64,000 nucleotides of DNA from Archivesica marissinica (Eukaryota > Mollusca > Bivalvia > Venerida > Vesicomyidae), in contig CM026400.1 in assembly GCA_014843695.1 (NCBI GenBank), positions 18,808,007 to 18,872,006 on the forward strand. Reading direction: 5' to 3'. Of the stretch, positions 2,040-28,400 are shown in pieces. The notes under the pieces are model-generated. The model saw nothing but the letters and a program-made list of their open reading frames with translations, had not been told where the DNA came from and searched no databases. Made by a program: the position numbers and the translations under genes. Numbering within the stretch: position 1 is the stretch's first letter; every line of letters starts with the position of its first letter.

Positions 2040-2187
2040 TAAGGCTCAAAAATATACCGGCAAAAAAGCCACATGTCCGATTATCCACTATCCAACCACA
2101 TACCCACATACTTCCCGGTGCAAGTATCTAACCAGGGTACTAACCAGTGCACTAACTGGACAGCTAGATGTTACAGTTTCCATTGTT
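2040..2187 (-). mobile_element. SINE C head, degraded
   Basis: ACATACTTCCCGGTGCAAGT and AACCAGTGCACTAACTGGAC on the plus strand correspond to the SINE C 5' region in inverse orientation. Its head was captured in the adjoining exon 27 array. Confidence 0.75.
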
Positions 2188-2823
2188 ACCTTCTAATAAA
2201 TCAGCCTTCTCCTTGGTTTTAAGGTCCGAGTTTAAGGTCCCAGGGTACTAACCACTGCACTAACCGGACAGCTAGAGATGTTACAGTTTCCATTGTTACC
2301 TTCTAATAAATCAGCTGTCTCCTTGGTTTTAAGGTCCGAGTGACTAACCAGGGTACTAACCAGACAGCTAGATGTTACAGTTTTTATTGTTACCTTCTAA
2401 TAAATCAGCCTTCTCCTTGGTTTTAAGGTCCGAGTGACTAACCAGGGTACTAACCACTGCACTAACCAGACAGCTAGATGTTACAGTTTTTATTGTTACC
2501 TTCTAATAAATCAGCCTTCTCCTTGGTTTTAAGGTCCGAGTGACTAACCAGGGTACTAACCACTGCACTAACCAGACAGCTAGAGATGTTACAGTTTTTA
2601 TTGTTACCTTCTAATAAATCAGCCTTCTCCTTAGTTTTAAGGTCTGAGTGACTAACCAGGGTACTAACCACTGCACTAACCAGACAGCTAGAGATGTTAC
2701 AGTTTTTATTGTTACCTTCTAATAAATCAGCCTTCTCCTTAGTTTTAAGGTCCGAGTGACTAACCAGGGTACTAACCACTGCACTAACCAGACAGCTAGA
2801 GATGTTACAGTTTTTATTGTTAC
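2188..2823. repeat. About 105-bp array duplicating the exon 27 donor
   Basis: Six decoy copies end near 2190, 2300, 2394, 2500, 2608 and 2716. On the minus strand each has CTTAAAACTAAGGAGAAGGC, TGATTTATTAGAAG/GTAACA (exon 27 end and donor), about 30 bases of intron, then GTCTGGTTAGTGCAGTGGTT, which is a SINE C head. Confidence 0.95.
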
Positions 2824-2983
2824 CTTCTAATAAATCAGCCTTCTCCTTAGTTTTAAGGTCCGAGTGACTATGCACTTTCTCGTCGACCTTCGTCATGTTG
2901 GCTTTGATGACAAAATCTGGCATACCGAGTTCTGCGGCAACGGTAGACTGTGTCTTGTTATTCACCAGTGAACTCCTCAATAA
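2824..2983 (-). CDS. drosha: drosha exon 27 (RNase IIIb, last exon in window)
   Basis: Acceptor GTATGTACAG/TTATTG and donor TTAGAAG/GTAACA bound 160 bp: LLRSSLVNNKTQSTVAAELG, MPDFVIKANMTKVDEKVHSH, SDLKTKEKADLLE. It aligns with human LLRSSLVNNRTQAKVAEELG and RTKTLADLLE. The next exon (SFIAALYID equivalent and dsRBD) was searched for between 1 and 2200 without success. Confidence 0.97.
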
Positions 2984-5900
2984 CTGTACATACCAACAAG
3001 ATCAGGTTACCAAGAATACAAGACATAGAGGATACAGTCAAACCTGTGTTACTGGTCACCTCTATTAAGCAGCCAACCTGTATTAAACAGCCAATTTCCA
3101 GATTCCCAATATGTTGTTTTATTATACATTTGACCTCTATTAAGCAGCCACCTGTGCTAAGCAGCCACTTTCTGAGATTCCCTTGGCTGGCTGCTTAAGA
3201 CAGGTTTGACTGTTTGTCTGATCAAGATATTTTAATCCATCGGTCAGATTGTCACGAAACATCACATGAATGAGGAGTACCAAACTGGTTGTGCATGTCA
3301 TCTTTGTGTTACGCTTGACTGTATTTGTTTAGTTTAAACATATTTTATTTTATCAATATTTACGTCATGTTGTAACATTAGTATATACAAGAACAGATGG
3401 ATTAAATCGGAAGCTAGTAGCTTGTATTTGTTTATTTTAATGAATGATAAAATTAGATTTCATTGAATGAATTTTGAAAGCAGTATTATCACGAGTGACA
3501 CTATCCGCGGGGTATTTGTTTATTTATTAGAATGAACAATATTTACATCGCTATTGCATTTCCTTCGACGAACGTATGTGCCCTGATTGAATAGTACAAC
3601 GGTATTACACACGGTAAGTCACAAATTGGACTAAATACCTTCTAATTGGAAAGTGTGATTTTTTTTCTTTGTCACATTGAAAAGAATAATTAATGTAAAT
3701 ATTAGTAATGAATCTCGGGTTAATAGTTTCCATCGGGGTATGAACTACATTGGGCGTGCTTAAAGTGTGTAGAGGTCGAAGAATTGAAAGCACTAATATC
3801 ACAAATAGCGCCATCACCATGTGATACTGTGATAGCTATCGATGTTCAAGAGTGAAATATAAGTTGATTATCAATTAATGGAATAAATTTTCTTTTTGTT
3901 TTATACCGATATGATTAAGTCCGATGGTATTGACATGGACGATATTTCTAACTGCAGTGGCTGGTAATAAACTGCTTCCAACCTATTTAGTTTAATCATA
4001 TTTTATTGCTCGATTCATTTTACATATATGCAATACAAGACATTTCAATTTGAAGAAAAGCAAACAAGTTCTGTCCAACCGATGAACTAACACAGTCGAT
4101 TTCACTGATAGATTTCTATATTTCATTGGAAAACATAAAATAAGGTCAATTATTCCGTCTTGTTACCTTTTACAATATCGGACATTCTGAAGTTACTTTG
4201 TACTTTTAATACAATATTACAATACCAGACAGCAAGAACTTACTGTTAAATGTCCTTCATGGTGGTCAGGGAAATGCTTGAATAGATATTCCGAGCAGAT
4301 CAACTGCATAATAGTGTCACCGAGAAACTCCATACGCTGATTGTGACCGCTGAAATAACAGTAATTTCACACATAAACGACTACAGTCTGCATCCGTTAT
4401 GTCAAAGTCGATTATGTCAAATTCTCTGGTTATCTCGAAGTCGGATCAAAGTCCCGTTTCAGACACTATCATTTTATATATAACTTGGCTCTGTTTATAT
4501 CAAATTTCGTTAAGTCAAACTTTGGTTATATAGTAAGTATTTTGTTCGGTCCGACGGAATTCGACATAACGGATGTAGACTAGTTTATATCCAAATGTTG
4601 GCAAGAACCGACAGTCACTGACAGTAACCGACCACTGAATCATCAAGTATATTAATCAGAATACAGATAGTAGCTATACAATAGGGGGGTGGTCCTCCAG
4701 CGGTCTGCGAATCCAGGGGTTAGGAGTTTGATTCCCTGTCCCACACTAATAATATTAACAGTCTTTCAGATGGGACTATAAACCGAGGTCTCATGTATGG
4801 GTGCTATACACCGGGCAGATGGGACTATATACCAAGGTCTCATGTATCGGTGCTATACACCGGGCAGATGGAACTATAAACTGAGGTCTCATGTACCGGT
4901 GCTATACACCGGGCAGATACAACTATAAACCAATATTTTATTTTCTATTTATTTGGTTTAACGGCGCATCAGCACAGTTCAGGCAATATCGCGCCGGGGA
5001 ACTATAAACCAAGGTCTCGTGTTTCGGTGCTATACACCAGACAGATTGGACTATAAACCGAGGTCTCATGTATCGGTGCTATACACCGTGTAGATGGGAC
5101 TATATACCAAGACATGTATCGGTGCTATACACCGTGTAGATGGGACTATATACCAAGACATGTATCGGTGCTATACACCGGGCAGATGGGACTATAAACC
5201 GAGGTCTCATGTATGGGTGCTATACACCGGGCAGATGGGACTATAAACCGGGGTCTCATGTATCGGTGCTATACACCGGGCAGATGCGACTATAAACGGA
5301 GGTCTCATGTATGGGTGCTATACACCGGGCAGATGGGACTATAAACAAAGGTATCATGTATCGGTGCTATACACCGGGCAGATGGGACTATAAACCGAGG
5401 TCTCATGTATAGGTGCTATACACCGGGCAGATGGGACTATAAACCGAGGTCTCACGTAGCTGTGCTATACACCGAGCAGATGGAACTATAAACAAAGGTC
5501 TCATGTATCGGTGCTGTACACCGGGCAGATGGGACAATAAACCGAGGTCTCATGTATGGGTGCTATACACCGGGCAGATGGAACTATAAACAAAGGTCTC
5601 ATGTATGGGTGCTATACACCGGGCAGATGGGACTATAAACCAAGGTCTCATGTATGGGTGCTATACACCGGGCAGATGGGACTATAAACCAAGGTCTCAT
5701 GTATGGGTGCTGTACACCGGGCAGATGGGACTATAAACAAAGGTATCATGTATGGGTGCTATACACCGGGCAGATGGAACTATAAACAAAGGTCTCATGT
5801 ATCGGTGCTATACATCGGGCAGATGGGACTATAAACAAAGGTCTCATGTATGGGTGCTGTACACCGGGCAGATGGGACTATAAACAAAGGTATCATGTAT

Positions 5901-8900
5901 GGGTGCTATACACCGGGCAGATGGAACTATAAACAAAGGTCTCATGTATCGGTGCTATACATCGGGCAGATGGGACTATAAACAAAGGTCTCATGTATGG
6001 GTGCTGTACACCGGGCAGATGGGACTATAAACCGAGGTCTCATGTAGCTGTGCTATACACCGGGCAGATGGGACTATAAACCGAGGTCTCATGTATGGGT
6101 GCTATACACTGGGCAGATGGGACTATAAACCGAGGTCTCATGTATCGGTGCTGTACACCAGGAATGTAAAAGAACCAGGGATGATTCTGGAATTGGAGAA
6201 TCTTCTGGGTCTTGTACTATCCTCCAACAATTCTGCCTCCGAGGTTATAAAACTTTCCGGAGTTCGAGCTCAAACTCAACTCGAGTTCTGTTCTCAACTC
6301 CAGTCTCAAACTCAATTTCCGTTCTCAACTCTAGTCTCAAACTCAACTCAAGTTCCGTTCTCAACTCTAGTCTCAAACTCAACTCAAGTTCTGTTCTCAA
6401 CTCTAGTCTCAAACTCAACTCAAGTTCTGTTCTCAACTCTAGTCTCAAACTCAACTCAAGTTCTGTTCTCAACTCACATCTCAAACTCAAGTTCTGTTCT
6501 CAACTCGCGTCTCAAACTCAACTCAAGTTCTGTTCTCAACTCTAGTCTCAAACTCAACTCAAGTTCTGTTCTCAACTCTAGTCTCAAACTCAACTCAAGT
6601 TCTGCTCTCAACTCGAATCTCAACTCAAGTTCTGTTCTCAACTAAAATCTCAAACTCAACTCAAGTTCTGTTCTCAACTCTAGTCCCAAACTCAAGTTCT
6701 GTTCTCAACTCGAATCTCAAACTCAACTCAAATTCTGTTCTCAACTCCAGTCTCAAACTCAAGTTCTGTGCTCAACTCCACTCTCAAACTCAGAAACGAA
6801 GGTCATAAAACTTCAGTTTGAACTCAGGTCGAGTTTGAAATTCAACAACCAATCTTAAGTCTAAAAATGGACGCTGTCGCCTCCATACGAGTTAAAGTCA
6901 ATTGAGCATAATCTTATACTCGACTGAGTACAATCTCAAAAAGTTATACAGAGTGAAGTCGAAACATGTTCAACTGGTAAATTGTAAGCAGGCATATACA
7001 GATACGTTTCAAGCAATTACTGTTGGTAAAAAAACATTATATAAACAGTTTTCACATCGGGCAGAGGAAATAATTATATATATAACCTACTTTTCTGTTT
7101 CAAATCTCCAGTGCGTTTTCAGTCGAGATCAGAAAAGTTTTATATACAGTCAAAACTGTGTTAGTGGTCACCTCTATTAAGCAGCCAACCTATATTAAGC
7201 AGTCAGTTTCCAGATTCCCAATATGTTGTTTTATTATACATTTGACCTCTATTAAGCAGTCACCTGTGCTAAGCAGCCACTTTCTGTAATTCCTTGGCTG
7301 GCTGCTTAAGACAGGTTTGACTGTACTCTCATATTCTGTAATTCATCAGAATTGTAATAATTCCCTAGAATTCTATAATTCAATACAATTCTAAAATTCT
7401 GTAATTCACTGGAATTCTATAATTCACAATACTTTTGTATTAGTTTGTTTATTATAGTGTCACCCCCATTTAAAGTGCCTGCCATTTCTGACTTATGAGA
7501 CACTTTATTTTATACTTCCAGAATGCTATGCTTGTATGCAAGGCGCTAGGCAATCGGTAACAATTATTTAACTAGTTGGCGGCTCACCAACCGTCCATAT
7601 CAGAATGAACCCCCGACGAATTTCGAACCTTGGACCTCCCGCTCTGTAGGCGGATGCCTTAACCACTAGGCCACGGAGACAGTATAATTTTACCAGAAAG
7701 GATAGATTAACCCTTTCCCCCATAGAGATGTAGTTTTATTTCATACATTTGGCTGTAATTTACCAATCGTACGCAATGGATAAGCTGTGAACTTGCCTAC
7801 TCCACCTTCGTGGAGGTTACTGGGAATTATTAAGTGTTGTATACACTACGTTGTCCGATCTTTATTATAGCTTGTTTGACTACTAATGTGTCATTCTATG
7901 TCAATAGGCATTCGGCGTCGAGAGGCGTTTCTAAGGGGAAAAGGGTTAACGGTAAGAACTTACTATGTGAGATTGTTGTAGCTGACATTACGCTGGGTGA
8001 AGCAGCGAGCAAGAAGACGGATGTTTCTGAAGTCATACCCAATATCATCTTCAAACTTCACAAGTTTCTGAAAGTACGGGAAAATTGTACAGCCCTTCAA
8101 CTAGTGATAAACCGATTATCGCTAAGTCGCCGACAATCGTTCGCCGGCATTGACATCGGCGATAATCGATTGTGAAATCGATTATAATCGACAAGTCTTT
8201 ATTTTTGTCTCTTACTTTTATGTTTGTTTATACCTCAAATAAAACCATGATTTACTATTGGCTGTTAGCATTGCACGTTTGCAACAACAATTCTAACTGT
8301 ATCTAGTACTAGACTTTTCACTAGTATGTCACTAAGCGTTTTGTCCTCTATTAACTTAAAAACTAATTTTATATCAGGTGGCAGTCTACTAACTTAAAGT
8401 CTAGTACTCAGATGTAACTGAGTAACTAATTTGTCGAAACTAGTAACTTGTAAGTAATTTATTAGTACTAAATAGATTGTTAAACTCACAAATTAGATGG
8501 AATGATTTTGATTTATAACTATATCAATTGTCCGATTAATAATCAATTATTTAATCGGTTTACCCGTCCGATTATTCCGATTAATCGATTATGGATTTTG
8601 AAACCGATGCACATCACTACCTTTAACACCATTATTACCCCAGAAACATGACTGTTGATGTATTTCACAGATAATCAGTACGGTCTACAGGATTTGCCTC
8701 AGAAACATGCCTGTTGATGTATTTCATAGATAATCAGTGTGGTCTACAGGATTTGCCTCAGAAACATGCCTGTTGATGTATTTCATAGATAATCAGTGTG
8801 GTCTACAGGATTTGCCTCAGAGACATGCCTGTTGATGTATTTCACAGATAATCAGTGTGGTCTACAGGATTTGCCTCAGAGACATGCCTGTTGATGTATT

Positions 8901-11900
8901 TCACAGATAATCAGTATGGTCTACAGGATTTGCCTCAGAGACATGCCTGTTGATGTTTTTCATAGATAATCAGTACGGTCTACAGGATTTTCCTCAGAGA
9001 CATGCCTAAATTCCACATTGCCTCTTCTCTCTCCTTCATTGCTATGGAGTCCATCAGGAATGACGTCTCAAGAGTGATTAATAAAAGTTGTAAGTACTTG
9101 TTTCGCAATCGAGCTAAAATAAATTTGTATAAACTAAACCAAAGTCTAAAGCCAACAAAACGGGGTTCAATTTCTGATCATTTTTATTACTTCTATAAAA
9201 AAAAAATGCCCTTCCGAGACGTACTTCAAGACACGGACGGGCACCTGGGTAGAACCACTGACCTACCACAAAGCAGCTGGATAGCTTCCTCACATGAAAC
9301 AATTTGACACTCCTGGTGGTATTAAAACCTAGTGGTGAAGGCAAGTGATTTGAGGTCAACGACAGTAACCACTACACCACGGAGGACCTAAAAATGAGAT
9401 GCATACGAACCTGTAAGACATGGCTCTGTTCTATCCAATGTCGATCTCCATTAGGCTCATCGGCAATCAATGGATGCTTTGGTGTGTTCACCCATGTATC
9501 TAGCAACTCTTCCTCATGGAACAACGTCTCCGAGAATACGCGATCTGCAACCTCGATACCAGCGTCTATAAACAACGCTCCTGTAAAACACAACATGAAA
9601 TAACGTCTCTGAGAATAAACGATCTGCAACCTCGATACCAGCGTCTATAAACAACGCTCCTGTAAAACACAGCATGAAATAACGTCTCCGAGAATACGCG
9701 ATCTGCAACCTCGATACCAGCGTCTATAAACAACGCTCCTGTAAAACACAGCATGAAATAACGTCTCCGAGAATACGCGACCTGCAACCTCGATACCAGC
9801 GTCTATAAACAACAGAGCATGGAATAACCTCTCCGAGAATATCCGTTCTGCAACCTCGATACCAGCATCTATAAACAACACAGCATGGAATAACCTCTCC
9901 GAGAATATCCGTTCTGCAACCTCGATACCAGCATCTATAAACAACACAGCATGGAATAACTTCTCCGAGAATATTCGTTCTGCAACCTCGATACCAGCAT
10001 CTATAAACAACACAGCATGGAATAACCTCTCCGAGAATATCCGTTCTGCAACCTCGATACCAGCATCTATAAACAACGCTCCTGTAAAACACAGCATGAA
10101 ATAACGTCTCCGAGAATACGCGATCTGCAACCTCGATACCAGCGTCTATAAACAACGCTCCTGTAAAACACAGCATGAAATAACGTCTCCGAGAATACGC
10201 GATCTGCAACCTCGATACCAGCGTCTATAAACAACAGAGCATGGAATAACCTCTCCGAGAATATCCGTTCTGCAACCTCGATACCAGCATCTATAAACAA
10301 CACAGCATGGAATAACCTCTCCGAGAATATCCGTTCTGCAACCTCGATACCAGCATCTATAAACAACACAGCATGGAATAACTTCTCCGAGAATATTCGT
10401 TCTGCAACCTCGATACCAGCATCTATAAACAACACAGCATGGAATAACCTCTCCGAGAATATCCGTTCTGCAACCTCGATACCAGCATCTATAAACAACA
10501 CAGCATGGAATAACCTCTCCGAGAATATCCGTTCTGCAACCTCGATACCAGCATCTATAAACAACACAGCATGGAATAACCTCTCCGAGAATATCTGTTC
10601 TGCAACCTCGATACCAGCATCTATAAACAACACAGCATGGAATAACCTCTCCGAGAATATCCGTTCTGCAACCTCGATACAAGCGTCTATAAACAACGTC
10701 TCCGTTCTGCAACCTCTATAAATAATCGAGCCAATGAAAACGTGCTTGAGCACGGAAATGACGATTGCTAAAGCACGTTTTCATTGGATAGATTATTAAT
10801 GCTTGAGCACGCGAATCGTCATTTCCGTTTCATGAAACGCGGACAGATGTAAACATTGGTATTGCCTAGCACTGTAATTAACATTATACAGAATTATGTG
10901 TGTTATAAGGTAGTTCAAATTGTTTAGGTAATAAATAACTTTGTGCCCATATTTGGCTGTTTTAGAACTTTGTTGGGCAATAACACAACAACTTTATTGC
11001 CATTCGGGGAACAGTTGCAACTAATACCCCATCGATGATGTGGATGACCCGACAGGAGCTTTGGGCAATAGTTCATCATTGTAAAATATCTTACCCATAA
11101 GGGCCTCGAAGCAGTTGGCCATGGCATGCTTGAGGTTACTGTGGTGACACAAGTCAGGTCCATGCGCATACAGGAGAAAGTCTTGCAACCGCAGTTTCTG
11201 AAAGAGATACAGACACAAGAGTGGTCTCTGTGAATACAGGAGAAAGTCTTGCAACCGCAGTTTCTGTAAGAGATACAGACACAAGAGTGGTCTCTGTGAA
11301 TACAGGAGAAAGTCTTGCAACCGCAGTTTCTGAAAGAGATACAGACACAAGAGTGGTCTCTGTGAATACAGGAGAAAGTCTTGCAACTGCAGTTTCTGAA
11401 AGAGATACAGACACAAGAGTGGTCTCTGTGAATACAGGAGAAAGTCTTGCTCCCGCTGTTTCTAAAAGAGATACAGACACAAGAGTGGTCTCTGTGAATA
11501 CAGGAGAAAGTCTTGCAACCGCAGTTTCTGAAAGAGATACAGACACAAGAGTGGTCTCTGTGAATACAGGAGAAAGTCTTGCAACCGCAGTTTCTGAAAG
11601 AGATACAGACACAAGAGTGGTCTCTGTGAATACAGGAGAAAGTCTTGCACCCACTGTTTCTAAAAGAGATACAGACACAAGAGTGGTCTCTGAGAATACA
11701 GGAGAAAGTCTTGCCACCGCAGTTTCTGAAAGAGATAAAAATAACAATGGCCCCAACACCTCAGTACCACAGGTCTATGAACATAAAAATGACAATGGCC
11801 CCAACACCTCAGTACAACAGGTCTATGAACATAAAAATGACAATGGCCCCAACACCGCAGTACCACAGGTCTATGAACATAAAAATGACAATGGTGTCCC

Positions 11901-14900
11901 AACACCGCAGTACCACAGGTCTATGAACATAAAAATGACAATAGCCCCAACACCGCAGTACCACAGGTCTATGAACATAAAAATGACAATGATGTCCCAA
12001 CACCGCAGTACCACAGGTCTATGAACATAAAAATGACAATGGTGCCCAACACCGCAGTACCACAGGACTATGTAGGTGACAACGATGAACGTTTTTATGA
12101 ACTGGGCACTATCCTGGGGATGTTTTATACTTACATCGCCTAGTATAGACAGGTGAGCATTCTGGACTAGACTTCCCCTGTACAGGGTTAGTTCACCTTC
12201 AGATGCTTGTGGAAACATGCTGAATAGATGGGTACTGAAATAATCAATGTACAATGTTAATACTGTAAGAACATGCAAATACAGTGAATCCATAACCTCC
12301 GTTGAGGAGAGTAAATTATTTGAACAAAAGGTCAAGAAGACCTGATACTACCAAGTCAAGGTCAAACAGACAGGATACTACCAAGTCAAGGTCAAGCAGA
12401 CAGGATACTACCAAGTCAAGGTCAAGCAGACAGGATACTACCAAGTCAAGGTCAAGCAGACAGGATACTACCAAGTTAAGGTCAAGCAGACAGGATACTA
12501 CCAAGTCAAGGTCAAGCAGACAGGATACTACCAAGTCAAGCAGACAGGATACTACCAAGTCAAGGTCAAGCAGACTGGATACTACCAAGCCAAGGTCAAA
12601 CAGACTGGATACTACCAAGCCAAGGTCAAACAGACAGGATACTACCAAGTCAAGGTCAAGCAGACTGGATACTACCAAGTCAAGGTCAAGCAGACTGGAT
12701 ACTACCAAGCCAAGGTCAAACAGACTGGATACTAACAAGTCACGGTCAAGCAGACTGGATACTACCAAGTCAAGGTCAAGCAGACAGGATACTACCAAGT
12801 CAAGGTCAAGCAGACAGGATACTACCAAGTCAAGGTCAAGCAGACCAGATACTACCAAGTCAAGGTCAAGCAGACCAGATACTACCAAGTCAAGGTCAAA
12901 CAGACTAGATACTACCAAGTCAAGGTTAAGCAGACCAGATACTACCAAGTCAATGTCAAGCAGACTGGATACTACCAAGTCAAGTCAAACAAACCGGATA
13001 CTACCAAGTCAAGGTCAAGCAGATGGGATACTACCAAGTCAAAGTCAAGCAGACCGGATACTACCAAGTCAAGGTCAAGCAGACAGGATACTACCAAGTC
13101 AAGGTCAAGCAGACAGGATACTACCAAGTCAAGGTCAAGCAGACAGGATACTACCAAGTCAAGGTCAAGCAGACAGGATACTACCAAGTCAATGTCAAGC
13201 AAACCGGATACTACCAAGTCAAGGTCAAGCAGACTGGATACTACCAAGTCAAGGTCAAGCAGACAGGATACTACCAAGTCAAGGTCAAGCAGACAGGATA
13301 CTACCAAGTCAAGGTCAAGCAGACTGGATACTACCAAGTCAAGGTCAAGCAGCCCAGATACTACCAAGTCAAAGTCAAGCAGACCTGATACTACCAAGTC
13401 AAGCAGACCTGATACTACCAAGTCAAGGTCAAGCAGATGGGATACTACCAAGTCAAGGTCAAGCAGACCTGATACTACCAAGTCAAGGTCAAGCAGACTG
13501 GATACTACCAAGTCAAGGTCAAGCAGACCTGATACTACCAAGTCAATGTCAAGCAGACTGGATACTTCCAAGTCAAGGTCAAGCAGACAGGATACTACCA
13601 AGTCAAGGTCAAGCAAACCGGATACTACAAGTCACGGTCAAGCAGACCTGATTCTACCAAGTCAAGGTCAAACAGACTAGATACTACCAAGTCAAGGTCA
13701 AGTAGATCGGTTACTACTAAGTCAAGCAGACCAGATACTACTAAGTCACGGTCAAGCAGACCGGATACTACCAAGTCAATGTCAAACAGACTGGATACTA
13801 CCAAGTCAAGGTCAAGCAGACTGGATACTACCAAGTCAAGGTCAAGCAGACCGGATACTACCAAGTCAAGCAGACTGGATACTACCAAGTCAAGGTCAAG
13901 CAAACCGGATACTACAAGTCAAGCAGACCTGATACTACCAAGTCAAGGTCAAGCAGACTGGATACTACCAAGTCAAGGTCAAACAAACCGGATACTACCA
14001 AGTCAAGGTCAAGCAAACTGGATACTACCAAGTCAAGGTCAAGCAGACCGGATACTACCAAGTCAAGGTCAAGCAGACCTGATTCTACCAAGTCAAGGTC
14101 AAACAGACTAGATACTACCAAGTCAAGGTCAAGTAGATCGGTTACTACCAAGTCAAGCAGACCAGATACTACCAAGTCATGGTCAAGCAGACCAGATACT
14201 ACCAAGTCAAGGTCAAGCAGACCAGATACTACCAAGTCACAGTCAAGCAGACCGGATACTACCAAGTCACGGTCAAGCAAACTGGATACTACCAAGTCAA
14301 GGTCAAGCAGACCGGATACTACCAAGTCAAGGTCAAGCAGACCTGATTCTACCAAGTCAAGGTCAAACAGACTAGATACTACCAAGTCAAGGTCAAGTAG
14401 ATCGGTTACTACCAAGTCAAGCAGACCAGATACTACCAAGTCATGGTCAAGCAGACCAGATACTACCAAGTCAAGGTCAAGCAGACCAGATACTACCAAG
14501 TCACAGTCAAGCAGACCGGATACTACCAAGTCACGGTCAAGCAAACTGGATACTACCAAGTCAAGGTCAAGCAGACCGGATACTACCAAGTCAAGGTCAA
14601 GCAGACCTGATTCTACCAAGTCAAGGTCAAACAGACTAGATACTACCAAGTCAAGGTCAAGTAGATCGGTTACTACCAAGTCAAGTAGACCAGATACTAC
14701 CAAGTCACGGTCAAGCAGACCAGATACTACCAAGTCACGGTCAAGCAGACCGGATACTACCAAGTCACGGTCAAGCAGACCTGATTCTACCAAGTCATGG
14801 TCAAACAGACCAGATACTACCAAGTCAAGGTCAAGTAGATCGGTTACTACCTCACTACCATAATTGTACAGCAGATACACTCACCTGGTAATAAATTCTA

Positions 14901-17900
14901 CAACAGCGTCCCCGAGGAATTCCAGCCTCTCATTGTGAGGGATTTCTGACCTCTTTTCTTCTTTATGTCCCATCTTAGCCATGATCTTCAGCAACACATG
15001 CAGTCCTATAATACATCATTTATATACCTAAATGCAACAGAAACCCTACATATGTGTGAAATTTTTAATGTTTTGCTGTATCAGCAAATTTCTGAAAATG
15101 TGTTAAAATTGGCGGATTCTGGAAAAAAGAGTTTTATACATCTACCCTGGGCAGGTGTACAACCCTATATGCAAGCTAACTGGGGTGGATCAATCATCAT
15201 CGATCATCATCAATCATCATCATCATGTAAAGTTTCAGCATATTCCAACAAAGGACAAAGCCCAGACCAAGTGTATTCTTCAAAGGGCCATAACTCTGTA
15301 GTATATGACATGTATAACTAGGTTTGATAGTTATCTCTCCTGTTAAATTTCATCAAAATCCGGCAATGGGTTATAGAGATGAAACTTCAACAATATCTGT
15401 TTCTTAAATTTTTTCGACAAGACATAATTCTGTAAACAATCAGCCAAACGGAACGCGAAGCTAGACTTGATAGTGATCTCTCCTGCAAAGTTTCATCTAA
15501 ATCCGGCAAGGGTATAGATGATAATAAAGATGAAACCTGCAAAAGCCAAAGATGTTGGACAGATGGACGACATTGCCAAAAACAATACTGTTTGTCTCCC
15601 CAGAAGTGAGGATATATAATTATATTATATCAATAATAATGAAACAATTTATTATTTAAAACTGTTGTAAAATCAAACATGAACATGTTTTATTGCAAAA
15701 TCGCAATAACCTTGCATTTGGCAATCTCAACCATGGGAATACTGAGAAACAGATATGTACCTCTCTTCCTCGTGTGCTGGTAAACACGATTGTGGTCGCC
15801 AAATTCTAGCTGCCTGAATCCACAGTTAGACAGGGAATTACGTCCATGATCAGGATTTGTCCCGTAGTTAATCTTGTACGAACTGTGCGTCATTGCCAAC
15901 TGTATGAAAATACAGTTCGTTTAACCCTTTCCTTCATAGAGTATTACTGGGGGAATACATAGAGATTTAGGTTAATATACTATTATATCTCCATACAAAC
16001 GACAGCCATTTAGCTATCATGCTGTGGATAAGTAGTCGCCATATCTATCCCACCTCCATAGATATTACTGGGACTACATGAGATTTAGGTTAATATACTA
16101 TTATATCTCCATACAAACGACTGCCATTTAGCTATCATGCTGTGGATAAGTAGTCGCCATATCTATCCCACCTCCATAGATATTACTGGGACTACATGAG
16201 ATTTAGGTTAATATACTATTATATCTCCATACAAACGACTGCCATTTAGCTATCATGCAGTGGATAAGTAGTCGCCATATCTATCCCACCTCCATAGATA
16301 TTACTGGGACTACATGAGATTTAGGTTAATATACTATTATATCTCCATACAAACGACAGTCATTTAGCTATCATGCAGTGGATAAGTAGTGGCCATATCT
16401 ATCCCACCTCCATATATATTACTGGGACTTCATAGAGATTTAGGTTAATATACTATTATATCTCCATACAAACGACTGCCATTTAGCTATCATGCAGTGG
16501 ATAAGTAGTCGCCATATCTATTCCACCTTCATAGATATTACTGGGACTACATGAGATTTAGGTTAATATATTATTATATCTCCATACAAACGACAGTCAT
16601 TTAGCTATCATGCAGTGGATAAGTAGTCGCCATATCTATCCCACCTCCATAGATATTACTGGGACTACATAGAGATTTAGGTTAATATACTATTATATCT
16701 CCATACAAACGACAGCCATTTAGCTATCATGCAGTGGATAAGTAGTCGCCATATCTATCCCACCTCCATAGATATTACTGGGATTACATGAGATTTAGGT
16801 TAATATACTATTATATCTCCATACAAACGACAGCCATTTAGCTATCATGCAGTGGATAAGTAGTCGCCATATCTATCCCACCTCCATATATATTACTGGG
16901 ACTACATGAGATTTAGGTTAATATACTATTATATCTCCATACAAACGACAGCCATTTAGCTATCATGCAGTGGATAAGTAGTCGCCATATCTATCCCACC
17001 TCCATATATATTACTGGGACTACATAGAGAATTAGGTTAATATACTATTATATCTCCATACAAACGACGGCCATTTAGCTATCATGCAGTGGATAAGTAG
17101 TCGCCATATCTATTCCACCTCCATAGATATTACTAGGACTACATAGAGATTTAGGTTAATATACTATTATATCTCCATACAAACGACGGCCATTTAGCTA
17201 TCATGCAGTGGATAAGTAGTCGCCATATCTATTCCACCTCCATAGATATTACTGGGACTACATAGAGATTTAGGTTAATATACTATTATATCTCCATACA
17301 AACGACGGCCATTTAGCTATCATGCAGTGGATAAGTAGTCACCATATCTATCCCACCTCCATAGATATTACTGGGACTACATGAGATTTAGGTTAATATA
17401 CTATTATATCTCCATACAAATGACAGCCATTTAGCTATCAGGCAGTGGATAAGTAGTCACCATATCTATCCCACCTCCATAGATATTACTGGGACTACAT
17501 GAGATTTAGGTTAATATACTATTATATCTCCATACAAACGACAGCCATTTAGCTATCATGCAGTGGATAAGTAGTCGCCATATCTATTCCACCTCCATAG
17601 ATATTACTGGGACTACATGAGATTTAGGTTAATATACTATTATATCTCCATACAAACGACAGTCATTTAGCTATCATGCAGTGGATAAGTAGTGGCCATA
17701 TCTATCCCACCTCCATAGATATTACTGGGACTACATGAGATTTAGGTTAATATACTGTTATATCTCCATACAAACGACAGTCATTTAGCTATCATGCAGT
17801 GGATACGTAGTCGCCATATCCGTCCCACCTCCATAGATATTACTGGGACTACATGAGATTCTGGCCTTAATTATGAACATTTGTTTGGCTACTACATTGT

Positions 17901-19417
17901 CAATGTATGTGGTATTGGTAATGGCGTCAAGAGGTGATTCTATGAGGAAAAGGGTTAAACATATTTGTTCATTCATAATGTACAGTACATATCTATTTTA
18001 TACAGAATGAAAATGGATTTAATCGAAAGCGTAAAGCTTATTGAGATTATCTCCATAAAATATGGTTAGATATTGCTATGGCAACCGTTAGATGTTGCTA
18101 TGGTAATGCCACACTTATTCTAACCATAAGAGTTGGAAGTTTATTCAGTTTAATAAAATCAACTTTATTAAAAATAAGAAAGGAATGATTTAATGTACGG
18201 TTTATACAAATATAAACCGCATCTCACCTGTTTAATAAACCGCACCTCACCTGAATAATAAACCGCATCTCACCTGTATAATAAACCATATCGCACCTGA
18301 ATAATAAACCGCATCTCACCTGCATAATAAACCGCATCTCACCTGAATAATAAACCATATCTCACCTGAATAATAAACTGCATCTCACCTGAATAATAAA
18401 CTGCATCTCACCTGAAGCAGAGATCTGTCTTTGAACTTGTACTTTATGGAGTCCTCGAGCACAGACAAACATTCATGAAATCGTAGATGTTCAAACAATA
18501 CAGGTAACAACATAGCATGCTGAAACGTAACGCAAAGTTGTTAATTACAACATGCGTAAAGTTGAAACTTTATTTACTTTACAGCAATTGCGAAGCAAGC
18601 TTTAACAACTTATATTAATCACTCTCGTTGGCGCAGATGAACGAGTAAATGTGGTCATTCGTGTGGAAGGAAACCGGAGTATCCGGAGAAAACCCACCTG
18701 TCCGATCTGGCGACCACCGTACAATCTCACATACTTCCCGATCCGAGGATCGAACCTGGGTTGCATTGGTGAGAAGTGAGCGTGCTAACCACTGCGCTAA
18801 TTGGACAGCCACAGGTGTACACTGTAGATTCACAGCCATTCATTGGATGACAATTTTGCCAAACAAAAAGAAAGAGTAGGTCGCATCCAGGCCTGGAGGT
18901 TATAAAGCTTTATTCCAGTCTCTGCCGTCTGATTAGTTCAGCTGTTCAGCTGAGTGTGAATCTCAAGAATTGTGTGTTTATTTATCATCGCTACCGGTTG
19001 CCCATATGAGCGACGCCTCCTGAAGAGATTAGTCATTTTAGATTTTTGGCCGATAGTGCAATGATACAGACAGTCTCCTCTGGTTCTTTTACGTGTACAG
19101 TGTAAAGCACCGACACGTGACCTCGGTTTAACGTCCCATCTGAAAGACTGTTAATTTTATTAGGGTCAGACGGGGGATCGAACCTGCGATCCCTGGATTA
19201 CCAGTCCAGCGTGTTACCACTGGACTACAGATCCGTCTGTGAATCTCAAGAATTGAGATCTGAGAAGTTTTATAACCTTGGGCCCAGGTCTGAAAACCTT
19301 AGACTCCCAGTTAATCACACAATTGCTCTACTAATTGAACTACAATGTTGTTTGTGTTATTGAACATTTCTCCACTATAGATTTGATAATATTTTACTGC
19401 TCTATATACATGTATAT

Positions 19418-19457
<40 letters not shown>

Positions 19458-22400
19458 GCAACAACAACAACAACAATCCTATAACCAATTTTTACGATTT
19501 AATCGATTTTTACATGTTTTAAATAGTACACTTAAACTGATGAGGAACCTACTTAAAATATGGATTGTACATTAGATACACAAAATAAGAAATTATAGAT
19601 TAAAACTACAACATATCAACCATATGATACAAACTTTAAGAAATGGAAGGATAAATGAAATTAAAGACACCACCCTGGGGCATAACAAATCGTTTACAAT
19701 ATAATATAATTTTAAAGTAAAATGTTTGTGATAACGAGAAAGGATTAAGGTTTAGGGAGTTGCTAAATCTATCATCTTAAGCGTGAAAGTGACATAAAGT
19801 TCTCCACTATATGTACAAGATTGGATAATTCCAATTCATCAGATGTGTTTTTTGAGTTACTATCGGTCTTCACAGTCGAAAGCGCTGAAATTGAGTTATC
19901 AACGGTCACTGACTATGTGGTTTCTATGAGGAGGTGGGGTACTCAGTAATGGTTTGACTGTACAATGACAAGACATCAGAGATATATACCTGACAGATAT
20001 CCGCCCGTATACAGGTGGGGTACTCAGCAATGGTTTGTACATGACAAGACATCAGAGATATATACCTGACAGATATCCACCCGTATACAGGTGGGGTACT
20101 CAGCAATGGTTTGTACATGACAAGACATCAGAGATATATACCTGACAGATATCCGCCCGTATACAGGTGGGGTACTCAGCAATGGTTTGTACATGACAAG
20201 ACATCAGAGATATATACCTGACAGATATCCGCCCGTATACAGGTGGGGTACTCAGCAATGGTTTGATTGTACATGAGACATCAGAGATATATACCTGACA
20301 GATATCCACCCGTATACAGGTGGGGGTACTCAGCAATGGTTTGATTGTACATGAGACATCAGAGATATATACCTGACAGATATCCGCCCATATACAGGTG
20401 GGGTACTGAGCAATGGTTTGATTGTACATGAGACATCAGAGATATATACCTGACAGATATCCGCCCGTATACAGGTGGGGTACTCAGCAATGGTTTGTAC
20501 ATGAGACATCAGAGATATATACCTGACAGATATCCGCCCGTATACAGGTGGGGTACTCAGCAATGGTTTGTACATGAGACATCAGAGATATATACCTGAC
20601 AGATATCCGCCCGTATACAGGTGGGGGTACTCAGCAATGGTTTGATTGTACATGAGACATCAGAGATATATACCTGACAGATATCCGCCCGTATACAGGT
20701 GGGGTACTCAGCAATGGTTTGACTGTACATGAGACATCAGAGATATATACCTGACAGATATCCGCCCGTATACCGGTCTTGAGGAAACCGTCGCTGCTCA
20801 CTGCCACTGTCACTTCACGCTTCATTCGCCTGAAACATTCGTACAACTGTCGTTATTTAGCGATAATGTAGTAACATCTCTATATGATACAATCTAATGC
20901 TTTCTTTCTTGCGATTAGCATATACAGTCTACATCCGTTATGTCGAATTCCGACAGACCGAACAAAATACTTCGACATAACCGTTTGACTTAACGAAATT
21001 CGATATAAGCAGAGCCAGTCTCGATATAAACAGAGCCAGTTATATGTAAAATGATAGTGTCTGAAACGGGACGTTGATCCGATTTCGAGATAACCGGAAA
21101 ATTCTACATAACTTTGACATAGCTGATGTACCATAATAATGTAGGATGCTATGTTTACAGCCTGGTTTGCTTGTCTATCAACAGGATTACACATAAAGGA
21201 AGTTCGATTGCACAGTGGTAGCGCATTTGCTTCAGGTGCGAAAAGCCCAGAGTTAGATCCCCGCTGGAGCTTTTACGATTGTGCCCTTAGGCAAGGCATT
21301 AAAATTCCACATTGCCTCTTCTCTCTTCCTCATGGCGATGGATTCCATCAGGAATGAGGTATCGAGAGTGATTAATATAAGTTGTAAGAAATTGTTTCGT
21401 AAATAAATTTTTTATAAACTATGCACCAAAAACATACGTATGGATGTTCATAAATTTTTCCAGGAAAGGTCAGCCATGGGGCTAAGACCAATCCAGTACC
21501 TATTGGTGATGTCAAAGGACTCTTTGTCATTGTGAGATAGGACAAGCATGACATTTAGCAAGACTACTACTGCTACTGTTTATGAATACAAAGATCAGTG
21601 TCCATATTGTCGCTACCATTTCATGCGTATTTTCTCGAGATCGGCTTCCAGCTCGTACAGTTTTTCCCTCTCCTTCACCGGGATCCTGGATCGACTCCAC
21701 AGCAAGTGTCGAAACTTCATGTACTCTCTCCATTTCTTCTTATACCTACAAATAGTGAACCTCACAGTATATACAGTCAAACCTGTCTTAAACAGCCAGC
21801 CAAGGGAGTCAGAGAAAGGTTTGGGGTTAGCCCTTAGACAATTTGCTAAATTATGGTAATTGATCAAGAGGCAGCAAGGCAGTTACATATTGACGAAAAG
21901 AGCAGACAAGTTCTAAGTTGTATAGGTGTGCCTGCCCTAATCATATTTAAAAAGGTAAAAGGGCAGGGCTAAAAAGCTGTATCCATTACAGTTGTGCACT
22001 TAGGCAAGTTATTTAAATTCCACGGAATTTCCATCAGGAATGAGAGAGTGATTATTAAAAGATGTAAGAACTTGTTTCGCAATCAAGCTAAAATAAATTT
22101 GTATAAACTAGCTTGAGCAAAGACTGTTGAGAAGCAACTGACTCGCCAGTCAATGACAATTGACCATATATACACATTCTACACGCAGAAAGCTCCACCA
22201 ATCAAAGATGACCATTCAGAATAACTAGGCTAATAAATGAATGAAATACCTCACCTAATGAATCGCTGCAGCAAACCACTTTATTTCCACGAGAAGTGTG
22301 TGTTTCCCATGCTCCAATCTACCTTTTAATATTAAAGGTATATCCCCAATATTCTGTACCTTGTGTTTATATTTGTTTGCCATGCTCCAATCTACCTTTT

Positions 22401-25400
22401 AATATTAAAGGTATATCCCCAATATTCTGTACCTTGTGTTTATATTTGTTTGCCATGCTCCAATCTACCTTTTAATATTAAAGGTATATCCCCAATATTC
22501 TGTACCTTGTGTTTATATTTGTTTGCCATGCTCCAATCTACCTTTTAATATTAAAGGTATATCCCCAATATTCTGTACCTTGTGTTTATATTTGTTTGCC
22601 ATGCTCCAATCTACCTTTTAATATTAAAGGTATATCCCCAATATTCTGTACCTTGTGTTTATATTTGTTTGCCATGCTCCAATCTACCTTTTAATATTAA
22701 AGGTATATCCCCAATATTCTATACCTGATTGCGGCTTTGTTTATTTTCAAGTTTTTGCGCGAAAGTTGCAAAATTCAAATCAATAGTACATGCCATATTT
22801 TACACAAACACTTGTTACCTATATCTTATATTGTATGTCTATAGACCTATGTAAATCACTGTAAACAATTACTGTTCCCAGATAAGAAATATCAAATATG
22901 TATATTTAAAACCAACAATATTATAACGCTTAATTAGTCATGTTGTTAAATATGTAACCTGACATTAATAAAAGTACTTGTTGTTGTTGACATTACACAT
23001 TCAGTCACGGAGGCGGGTGCCTCTCCATCACATACTTCCAGCATTAATCTTGATCGCATAATTTTAACACAGAACTTCGATACTTACACAGGGTCACCAG
23101 CATAGCTGAGCTGCGTAGGACGTACACCATGATGTATAATATAAGGCAGCTTTAACCCTCCATCTTCAGTAATACAATCAGTTCTATCCAGCTGATCCAC
23201 TCTGATGGAACATGGTTTCTGAAATGGACAGTATATACTGCAGTAAAACAATCAGCTCTATCCAGCTGATCCACTCTGATGGAACAGGGTTTCTGAAATG
23301 GACAGTATATACTGCAGTAATACAATCAGCTCATTCCAGCTGATCCACGGTTTCTGAAATGGACAGTATATACTGCAGTAATACAATCAGTTCTATCCAG
23401 CTGATCCACTCTGATGGAACATGGTTTCTGAAATGGACAGTATATACTGTAGTAATACAATCAGTTCTATCTAACTGATCCACTCTGATGGAACATGGTT
23501 TCTGAAATGGACAGTATATACTCTACTAATACAATCAGCTCATTTTAGCTGATCCACTCTGATGGAACATGGTTTCTGAAATGGACAGTATATACTGCAG
23601 TAGTACAATCAGCTCATTCCAACTGATCCACTCTGATGGAACATGGTTTCTGAAATGGACAGTATATACTGTAGTAATACAATCAGTTCATTCCAGCTGA
23701 TCCACTCTGATGGAACATGGTTTCTGAAATGGACAGTATATACTGTAGTAATACAATCAAGCTCATTCCAGCTGATCCACTCTGATGAAACATGGTTTCT
23801 GAAATGGACAGTATATACTACAGTAATACAATCAGTTCTATCCAACTAATCAACTCTGATGGAACATGGTTTCTGAAATGGACAGTATATACTGTAGTAA
23901 TACAATCAGTTCATTCCAGCTGATCCACGCTGATGGAACATGGTTTCTGAAATGGACAGTATATACTGTAGTAATACAATCAGTTCATTCCAGCTGATCA
24001 ACTCTGATGGAACATGGTTTCTGAAATGGACAGTATATACTGTAGTAATACAATCAGTTCATTCCAGCTGATCCACGCTGATGGAACAGGGTTTCTGAAA
24101 TGGACAGTATATACTGCAGTAATACAATCAGTTCTATCCAGCTGATCCACTCTGATGGAACATGGTTTCTGAAATGGACAGTATATACTCTACTAATACA
24201 ATCAGCTCATTTTAGCTGATCCACTCTGATGGAACATGGTTTCTGAAATGGACAGTATATACTGTAGTAATACAATCAACTCATTCCAACTGATCCACAC
24301 TGATGGAACAGGGTTTCTGAACTAGAACAAAATGGATTTCTCACTAGCAGTGTTGCATAAGTGAAAAAATGGGCCATAACTCTGTGAAAAAATGAATCTA
24401 GCGAAATGTGAAGATGAAATGCAGAACTAGATTTAGTGGTGATCATTATGTGCAAGTTTCACACTCTCAATTAGAAGCATACCTTTCCGGGACAAGTGAC
24501 AACCATATGTTGAAAACTGTCCACATATTTCGTCCAGTTCTCCTTATCTAACTCATACATGAATGGTAGATCGGCCGGTTCCAGTAAATGCTTGGAGGAC
24601 TTCAGTAGATACAGCAGCACGTCATTCATGGACAGTAACTCTTTGCCATTTTCTGAGAATATAATTATACAGAACTGGATAGAAGCAAGTTTTGTTGTTT
24701 ACAGTCAAACCTGTGTTAGTGATCACCTCCATTAAGCAGCCAGTTTCAAGATTCTAAATATGTTGTTTTACTATACACTTGATATCTATTAAGAAGCCAC
24801 CTGTGCTAAGCAGCCACTTTCTCTGACTCCCTTGGCTGGATGCTTAAGACAGGTTTGACTGTATATACAACATAATAATTACAACTTCTTGCAATATCGC
24901 GATTCTGATTGGCTGATTCAGCCCATGTGATCGCCGTTCATAACCCAATGAATTGCAAATTTATTTAGATCTCATTAATATTCATAGCGGATATGTGGCA
25001 GTCAATATTTATATTTATCACATAACTTTGCTTGTACTGAGTGTAATACAGTCATCTCATAATGTCTTATATCCACACACGTGTAATAGTATCTGGAAGG
25101 ATTCCGATTGGTTGAGAGAATAATCCTTATAATTTGTAAATTATGCAAATATAACGTTAATGATAAGACAAAGGACGATTTAAAAGAAGTCTTGACGCAT
25201 TTATAAACGCTGTTTAAAACATAAATACAACGCTGCTGTGCATAGTGATGTCATGACAATTTAGTGACGTCATGCGAATTTGAGCTGATATTTAGCGCCA
25301 AAATGAAAGTAGCAGCGTTATTTTGTGCAAAAGTATGATTAAACCCCAACATGGTAATGTGATAAAAAGAATGTGAGTACATTTTTAATTGGCGTAAAGG

Positions 25401-28400
25401 CCGTTGTTCATGTGATAAAGAAATTTTGTGACTTAGTCTATACAAATTTATTTTAGCTTGATTGCGAAACAAGTTCCTTCAACTTATATTAATCACTCTC
25501 GAGACCTCATTCCTGACCTCATTCCTGACCTCATCGCCACGAGGGAGAGAAGAGGCAACGTGGAATTTAAATGCCTTGCCTAAGGGCACAATCGTAACGG
25601 CTCCAGCGGGGCTCGAACTCCGGACCTTTCGCACCTGAAGCGAACGCACATCCACTGCGCCACCACGATTTTGTGACTTGTTTTCATTTAATATAACATT
25701 CATTAATCTCGTCCAAATAAAAGATTATTAAGCTTGACAGAAGCTCGATTAAAACATTTCTTTATACATGTCAACATTAGTTTGCATGCAGTGTACCTGG
25801 GAATGGCCGAGCAAATCTGGGCAGGATATGGTATCGTCTACAGTGCCCATCCTCTCCCGGTCCTCGCCAGTCTATGTCCACAAGTTCCAGAATCTCATCA
25901 AATATGTACTCCGTGAATGTATCCAGGCTTTGTACCGAGAAATTCTGAAAATGATAAATTCTGAAAATAATTATGTCAACATGTTTAGAACCGAGGAATT
26001 TTGAAAAATGATGAAATCTGAAAACAAATCCAGATTTGTTTACCTACAGTAGTGCAAAGAACAACGGGTGCTGCAAAGAACAACTGGTGCTGCAAAGAAC
26101 AACTGGCGGTGCAAAGAACAACTAGTGCTGCAAAGAACAACTGGTGCCACAAAGAACAACTGGTGCTGCAAAGAACAACTAGTGCTGCAAAGAACAACTG
26201 GTGCTACAAAGAACAACTGGTGCTGCAAAGAACAACTAGTGCTGCAAAGAACAATGGGTGCTGTAAAGAACAACTGGTGCTGCAAAGAACAACTGGTGCT
26301 GCAAAGAACAACTGGTGCTGCAAAGAACAACTGATGCTGCAAAGAACAACTGGTACTACAAAGAACAACTAGTGCTGCAAAGAACAACTAGTGCTACAAT
26401 GAACAACTAGTGCTGCAAAGAACAACTGATGCTGCAAAGAACAACTGGTGCTACAAAGAACAACTGGTGCTGCAAAGAACAACTGGTGCTGCAAAGAACA
26501 ACTGGTGCTACAAAGAACAACTGGTGCTGCAAAGAACAACTGGTGCTGCAAAGAAACAACTGGTGCTACAAAGAACAACTTGTGCTGCAAAGAACAACTG
26601 GTGCTGCAAAGAACAACTGGTGCTGCAAAGAACAACTAGTGCTGCAAAGAACAACTAGTGCTGCAAAGAACAACTGGTGCTGCAAAGAACAACTGGTGCT
26701 GCAAAGAACAACTGGTGCTACAAAGAACAACTGGTGCTGCAAAGAACAACTGGTGCTGCAAAGAACAACTAGTGCTGCAAAGAACAATGGGTGCTGTAAA
26801 GAACAACTGGTGCTGCAAAGAACAACTGGTGCTACAAAGAACAACTGGTGCTGCAAAGAACAACTAGTGCTGCAAAGAACAACTGGTGCTGCAAAGAAAC
26901 AACTGGTGCTACAAAGAACAACTAGTGCTACAAAGAACAACTAGTGCTACAAAGAACAACTGGTGCTGCAAAGAACAACTAGTGCTGCAAAGAACAATGG
27001 GTGCTGTAAAGAACAACTGGTGCTGCAAAGAACAACTGGTGCTACAAAGAACAACTGGTGCTGCAAAGAACAACTAGTGCTGCAAAGAACAACTGGTGCT
27101 GCAAAGAAACAACTGGTGCTACAAAGAACAACTAGTGCTGCAAAGAACAACTGGTGCTGCAAAGAACAACTAGTGCTGCAATGAACAACTGGTGCTGCAA
27201 AGAACAACTGGTGCTGCAAAGAACAACTGGTGCTGCAAAGAACAACTAGTGCTACAAAGAACAACTGGTGCTGCAAAGAACAACTAGTGCTGCAAAGAAC
27301 AATGGGTGCTGCACAGAACAACTGGTGCTGCAAAGAACAACTGGTGCTGCAAAGAACAACTGGTGCTGCAAAGAACAACTAGTGCTGCAAAGAACAACTG
27401 GTGCATTTGACGGTTTTCAAAACAATATTGGATCTTTCAAAATTGTCTTAGAAACATTGTAAGTCAGCCATACTATAATTTCTATACAATACAAATAAAG
27501 TCTCTGGCAAACGTCATTCAGCAATCTACTAGACATGCACAGCCTCGTGAAATACTTGCCTAGGCAGTAGATTTGACAAAGTTTCATAATAAAAGCGAAG
27601 TAAATGATGATGACAACAATACCTTGTAACTTTAACAGCAGATTAAAACTTAGACCGTACCTCAGGTACCTGTTCCTCTACTAGATGGATAGTGTAGATT
27701 ATATTGAACCGCATCACTTGGCATTCCGGTAACTGCAATGAAACACGCACATCAATTTACAATTTCCCAATGAAGGAAATTTGCATTACGGATCGATTTC
27801 TATAAACAGCTCATTTTGGCAAATTTAATTTCCAGGATGCACATAGAATTTCATTAGCACCATTTTGGGATATATAGTCGACAGTTAACCAATACTTGGT
27901 GCGTATTGGTGCACCAACCTCCGTAAGAAACTGCCATCTGACAGTTGCATATATCGTCGCTCATATGGGCAACCGGTAGCGACGATAAATAAACATAAAA
28001 CACACACATAATGGAACAAATAGATACTGTTTAAACTAACCTGTCGTCTAACAACAGGTAACCATTAGAATGGTTTTCTTATTTGACATTGGAAAATTTG
28101 CTCTAATGTACCTGATATGACCAATCAGAACATTGCATATTTTTCACCCTCATATTTGTAAACATGCACCAAATATTTACTGAAAATGCATCCTGGCCCC
28201 AAGGTTATAAAACTTTTCTCCAATCTCAAAACTCAGTCTCAAGCGTCCGATTGGTTCAGCTGACAGTAACACTCTGAATCAACCAATCAGACCATTTGAG
28301 CTTGAGATCTGAGAAAAGTTTTATAACCCCGGGGCCTGGGCCTCAATCATACAAGGTGAGGACTAATGAAATTTAATGGTTTTCTTTCTAAAAAATATTG

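Follow-up and report, generated by a model that had tools for sequence, protein, structure and literature searches.

The minus strand of the 64,000-nt stretch of DNA that was analysed (the window) carries a bivalve drosha gene. Drosha is the RNase III that initiates the processing of microRNAs in the nucleus. With the RNase III exons as query, matches to human DROSHA structures were obtained. Among the matches listed, the closest protein was that of Ruditapes philippinarum (86% identity), with Mactra antiquata at 79% and Dreissena at 67%, and no identical protein was present among them. A central domain followed by two RNase III domains is found collinear with DROSHA, as in a drosha ortholog. 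The end of the second RNase III domain, the dsRNA-binding domain and exon 28 were not found within the window.

Exons were placed by comparison with human DROSHA and with relatives; the human sequence was checked against a PDB chain and the junctions were read base by base. Exons 9-27 (2824..34121, minus strand) hold the conserved part of the gene, i.e., the central domain, the first RNase III domain and most of the second. Spliced at the junctions adjacent to the exon bodies, they give 2,250 nt with 749 codons and no stops. Exons 1-8, farther up the gene, were read by eye, and the exon numbering is that of the original prediction. Joining of exons 1-27 yields one stop; the frame read for exon 1 contains one, and the assignment of this exon is tentative. 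Between exons 1 and 27 there are 26 introns of 501-3,657 nt.

Tandem Repeats Finder (TRF) shows arrays that cover the donor sites at exons 27, 19 and 18 and the acceptor sites at exons 24, 23 and 16, all given here on the minus strand. Exon 27 (2824..2983, real donor 2824/2823) is overlapped by an array at 2128..2865 with units of about 108 nt, which contain approximately the last 45 nt of the exon and the donor GTAACA. Six extra donors are present beside the real one, at 2715, 2607, 2499, 2393, 2299 and 2189. At exon 18 (20751..20829, real donor 20751/20750) the array spans 19932..20777, with units of 73-78 nt that include 23-27 exonic nt, and has the real donor and 10 extra ones (20673 to 19989). 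The 9-nt donor is identical in all 10 extra copies; two weak matches with 6 mismatches each (20573 and 20500) were dropped from the search. Exon 19 (18412..18519, real donor 18412/18411) has an array at 18212..18416 with 23-nt units, the real donor and 8 extra donors (18388 to 18227). It is a marginal case of boundary spanning, as the match between exon and repeat is limited to about 5 terminal bases of the exon (TTCAG), and the intron may be where the duplication began.

The acceptor array of exon 24 (9411..9580, real acceptor 9581/9580) is found at 9515..10697 and consists of 79- and 66-nt units with about 66 exonic nt. Five copies bear an acceptor, the real one and those at 9659, 9738, 10081 and 10160; the other 12 of the 17 copies have none, as the 66-nt units fall 13 nt short at that point. 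In the segment 9745-10697 the 66-nt units are almost wholly exon-derived, and runs of them keep a common frame (LFIDAGIEVAERIFSERLFHAV repeated), which makes this segment a stretch of repeated RNase III code within an intron. Exon 23 (11095..11197, real acceptor 11198/11197) has an array at 11168..11737 with 66-nt units, 30 nt of which are exonic, and with 8 extra acceptors (11263 to 11725) in addition to the real one. The largest number is at exon 16 (23088..23218, real acceptor 23219/23218), where 74-nt units with 52 exonic nt extend over 23167..24321 and provide 15 extra acceptors (23292 to 24316). Fourteen of these are identical over positions -20 to +3, and the outermost one (24316) has diverged.

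Counting the real sites, exons 27, 19, 18, 24, 23 and 16 have 7, 9, 11, 5, 9 and 16 junction copies, respectively. There are thus 51 extra junctions besides the six real ones, and GT or AG is intact in all 51. Locally, 40 of the 51 are the same as the real site (donor -3 to +6; acceptor -20 to +3). The extra sites are mostly 23 to 110 nt apart and lie beside real exons. The original prediction of a drosha gene in which three donors and three acceptors are repeated, at the exons numbered above, is borne out by the exon placement and the array search, and its "about 50" near-identical decoy junctions agree with the count. Its statement that the units contain an exon edge and the splice site holds for all six arrays, but with the provisos given above for exon 19 and for the copies of exon 24 that are devoid of an acceptor. 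It also pointed out that the copy adjoining the exon body is the one that continues into coding sequence and that the array always extends into the intron. Both are correct as description. They carry no evidence on mechanism, because any duplication that spans a junction yields them by geometry: the outer copy stays joined to the exon body and the remaining copies fall on the intron side.

Other tandem repeats are present in the gene and around it. They are found inside the N-terminal coding exons 4 (42605-43459), 5 (41342-41472) and 3 (47167-47356), and those of exon 4 code for recurring 'RRHTRDNRVERPVLRDDREEQPILREE'-like peptides. Repeats are present in the Mactra protein too (SNRGAILLEDRSPDV); as these differ from the exon 4 repeats, the N-terminal domain of drosha may evolve by repeat turnover. 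A 15-nt minisatellite (40269-40940) ends 7 nt before exon 6, and the pyrimidine-rich tract of the exon 6 acceptor comes from its last copy, with the AG itself not repeated. Long arrays of near-identical units are found on the far side of exon 27 (1-913, 48 nt x 19) and in intron 1 (48862-50003, 30 nt x 38). Introns 22 (11198-12134) and 21 (12235-14884) consist of 93% and 95% tandem repeat, respectively, and shrink to approximately 177 and 156 nt when the arrays are collapsed.

A repeat that crosses an exon boundary is found in human coagulation factor VII (F7), with Borensztajn 2006 reportedly the source for the intron 7 repeats. According to PMC6627357, the donor of F7 intron 7 lies in the first of several highly homologous 37-bp repeats, and the most upstream donor alone is normally used. 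In drosha likewise the exon edge and its own splice site are inside the tandem unit, with exon 19 as the marginal case. However F7, as described there, has one donor array in one intron, whereas drosha has three donor and three acceptor arrays, with units of 23-108 nt and 51 extra sites. Internal tandem repeats at human exon-intron boundaries have also been catalogued (De Grassi and Ciccarelli 2009, PMC2812944). These are minisatellites at the boundaries of coding genes, with splicing changed, and the likeness to drosha is in the boundary position. The 27 intron changes reported there are spread across recent duplicated paralogs and often represent new introns, whereas drosha is a single conserved gene in which the reading frame calls for no new intron. 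According to the original prediction, no described gene with this architecture is known. With F7 already described for donors and the human boundary repeats already catalogued, the claim is wrong in kind. What is new, as far as searches show, is that a single conserved gene has so many of these arrays and that acceptors are repeated in it along with donors; in the literature on repeated splice sites that was covered, with most subscription papers outside coverage, no gene with several such arrays was found.

Tandem arrays can also give rise to introns, and Zhuo 2007 is said to describe this for human introns. PMC4974935 describes a potato RdRp gene in which an intron was gained by tandem duplication across an intron-exon boundary. 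The drosha duplications cross such a boundary as well, but the potato gene gained a new intron, and the drosha reading frame requires none. The exon-adjacent junctions alone give the open frame, and an alignment of the protein with 8 molluscan proteins and the human one shows no inserts at five of the six repeated junctions; the sixth, the exon 27 donor, is outside the alignment, and its partner exon is missing from the window. A further comparison is with polyubiquitin UBC. Its tandem dual-specific sites read AG|GT, and 792 human introns inside 262 tandem repeats are listed in PMC10809524. AG|GT is repeated in the three drosha donor arrays too, where it is present at every extra site with weak pyrimidine tracts (7-10 of 20). 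In UBC the repeated unit is the coding ubiquitin monomer, whereas the drosha acceptor arrays read AG|AA or AG|GA and not AG|GT. An extra donor could conceivably act as acceptor for the real donor, and stepwise removal of the array would then leave a normal mRNA. The acceptor arrays are without AG|GT, hence without this dual-specific escape.

To place the six crossings against chance, each array was collapsed to one unit and the founder units were placed at random, with positions in introns and single junction crossings allowed. Repeats are abundant here. TRF masks 26,093 of the 64,000 nt of the window. Introns 1-26 total 42,272 nt, of which 20,893 nt are array sequence; as the exon 27 array is in intron 27, this figure comes from the other 23 of the 24 larger arrays. 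The set of 24 excludes the arrays inside exons 3, 4 and 5 and small TRF rows, e.g., 3058-3094, 7333-7425, 15189-15226, 19418-19476, 21000-21040 and 25503-25534. For the whole gene, 2.5 crossings are expected from the 24 intronic arrays versus 6 seen (P = 0.031), and 3.6 after removal of dispersed repeats (P = 0.14). With each array kept in its own intron, the expectation is 3.7-4.2 (P = 0.13-0.22). This conditional null matters, because collapsed introns 15, 21 and 22 shrink to 150-250 nt, and in such short introns a duplication of 50-80 nt will often reach into an exon. All these P values belong to a pattern that had been noticed before it was tested, and the dispersed repeats are those from a comparison of the window with itself only; more may remain, and these would push the null upward. 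The excess of crossings over chance is weak and null-dependent, and the six crossing arrays can be explained by repeats that are abundant and randomly placed.

A process aimed at exon-intron junctions, e.g., one tied to transcription or splicing or one that uses short AG/GT-rich homologies, should also be considered as the source of the duplications. In exons 9-27, 6 of 16 arrays cross where 1.96 are expected (P(>=6) = 0.008), or 2.74 with the dispersed repeats removed (P = 0.039), and 10 of the 16 either cross or end within about 65 nt of a junction, with 5.8 expected after the same removal (P = 0.03). However none of the 8 arrays in introns 1-8 crosses, the whole-gene and intron-conditional nulls give P values of 0.03-0.22, the unit lengths vary from 23 to 108 nt and the exonic share from about 5 to 66 nt, and repeats are present inside coding exons too. 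Such a process is highly unlikely in our estimate. With minisatellites forming 49% of the intronic DNA, the original prediction's single local process, duplicating again and again over the edges of exons in this gene, is not needed, and a boundary-targeting process of this kind is not supported. Assemblies are error-prone in the copy number of long near-identical arrays, and the arrays might be misassembled from a true genome with fewer copies. The copies display both private and shared substitutions and indels, the unit types are mixed and the window contains no N, and this explanation is very improbable.

It may also be that the extra sites are used enough to matter, with unproductive splicing tuning Drosha output, or in-frame peptides produced at exons 23 and 27, and with selection keeping the repeated sites intact. 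The intact GT or AG letters speak for it: in the 45 extra copies of five arrays no letter is broken, versus 3.45 expected (P = 0.03). Across five arrays, substitutions in the cores around the extra splice sites number 4, versus 20.8 expected by rotation (P = 0.02), in a count that excludes exon 24 and the outermost copies at exons 16 and 23. Per array, the rotation fractions are 0.15-0.68, not significant singly, and the copies are not independent; a first version of the test that included edge copies, also with exon 24 omitted, gave per-array fractions of 0.066-0.35 and was replaced. The frame, moreover, stays open at seven extra sites of exons 23 and 27. On the other side, the acceptor is absent from most exon 24 copies, and inserts would land in RNase III domains. 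At the exon 23 junction no insert is present in any of the 9 aligned relatives, and past the edge of exon 27 the proteins of Ruditapes and Mactra continue uninterrupted. The deficit of core substitutions is not predicted by pure neutrality and is a hint. It would be explained by selection on the real copy that is spread via exchange, or by real use of extra sites, and unequal exchange with a constrained real copy would yield the same pattern. Functional use is on balance unlikely. An extension of the exchange model, in which copy exchange spreads purifying selection array-wide and maintains a stock of spare splice sites that renews itself, can replace mutated sites and modulates the amount of functional Drosha, is quite unlikely.

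The exon-derived parts of the extra copies were also compared with the real exons. Third codon positions hold 12 of 15 differences in exon 24 and 7 of 10 in exon 27; in both, several differences are one change common to many copies and some may be changes of the real copy. No coding constraint is apparent in exons 16, 18 and 23; the exon 16 counts are inflated, as copy 23798 is out of register, and copy 23353 was left out for being too divergent. In the extra copies of exons 16 and 23, the parts that stem from the exon have amino-acid changes and stops, and by this evidence do not look translated. When the extra sites are used singly, 44 of the 51 lead to a premature stop. The seven that keep the frame open add 36, 72 and 108 codons at exon 27, in a check that reaches only as far as the exons of the window, and 22, 44, 66 and 88 codons at exon 23. 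A special in-frame design was considered for exons 23 and 27, whose units are partly open and have lengths divisible by 3, but to find this in two arrays out of six is by estimate unremarkable.

The explanation that we consider likely is that drosha is situated in a minisatellite-rich stretch, where six chance duplications that spanned exon boundaries grew, and that the extra sites are mostly silent passengers. The units suggest a history in which six tandem duplications happened across an exon edge and were followed by growth in copy number. The arrays would have been tolerated because the added copies are on the intron side of a conserved exon and can be spliced out, whereas arrays inside conserved exons would have been purged. 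Speaking against the passenger explanation are the excess of crossings in exons 9-27 taken alone (P = 0.008-0.039), the deficit of core substitutions and the predominance of third-position differences in exons 24 and 27.

With the sites mostly silent, the exon-adjacent copy would be the one chosen at all six sites, and its use appears to fit the reading frame and the protein alignment. For the 40 locally identical sites, local strength cannot decide, as they have the same sequence as the real site. Hiding of the extra sites by RNA structure was rejected: in predicted single-strandedness the real site did not stand out consistently from the extra ones, with ranks of 3/7, 7/9, 7/11, 9/16, 2/9 and 1/5. 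Position can distinguish real from extra sites. Introns above approximately 250 nt count as large, and those between exons 1 and 27 are all at least 501 nt long. With large flanking introns, the pair of sites nearest across the exon is preferred, according to a study of an alternative-site database (PMC9225289). Against a choice by position, the nearest extra sites would give exons of just 131-268 nt, which is within normal exon size. Donors would in addition be helped by transcription order, and for them F7 intron 7 is a direct precedent. For acceptors PMC9225289 reports an overall upstream preference that is merely reduced under exon definition, and because of this preference the acceptor arrays should leak. 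Leakage would thus be expected at the acceptor arrays first, and they would be leakier than the donor arrays. Most slips would run into a premature stop and be degraded, and nonsense-mediated decay would hide most of them.

Tens of locally identical donors and acceptors beside real exons make the effect of position separable from that of sequence, and six loci in one gene, acceptors included, are a good natural test of splice-site choice. The arrays are also a warning that gene prediction in minisatellite-rich genomes can choose the wrong junction copy. Within a single transcript, RNA from drosha would put the rules of exon definition, transcription order and nearest-site choice to the test at six places, and would show whether repeats that expand at the edges of exons do no harm, are a burden or supply material for new isoforms.
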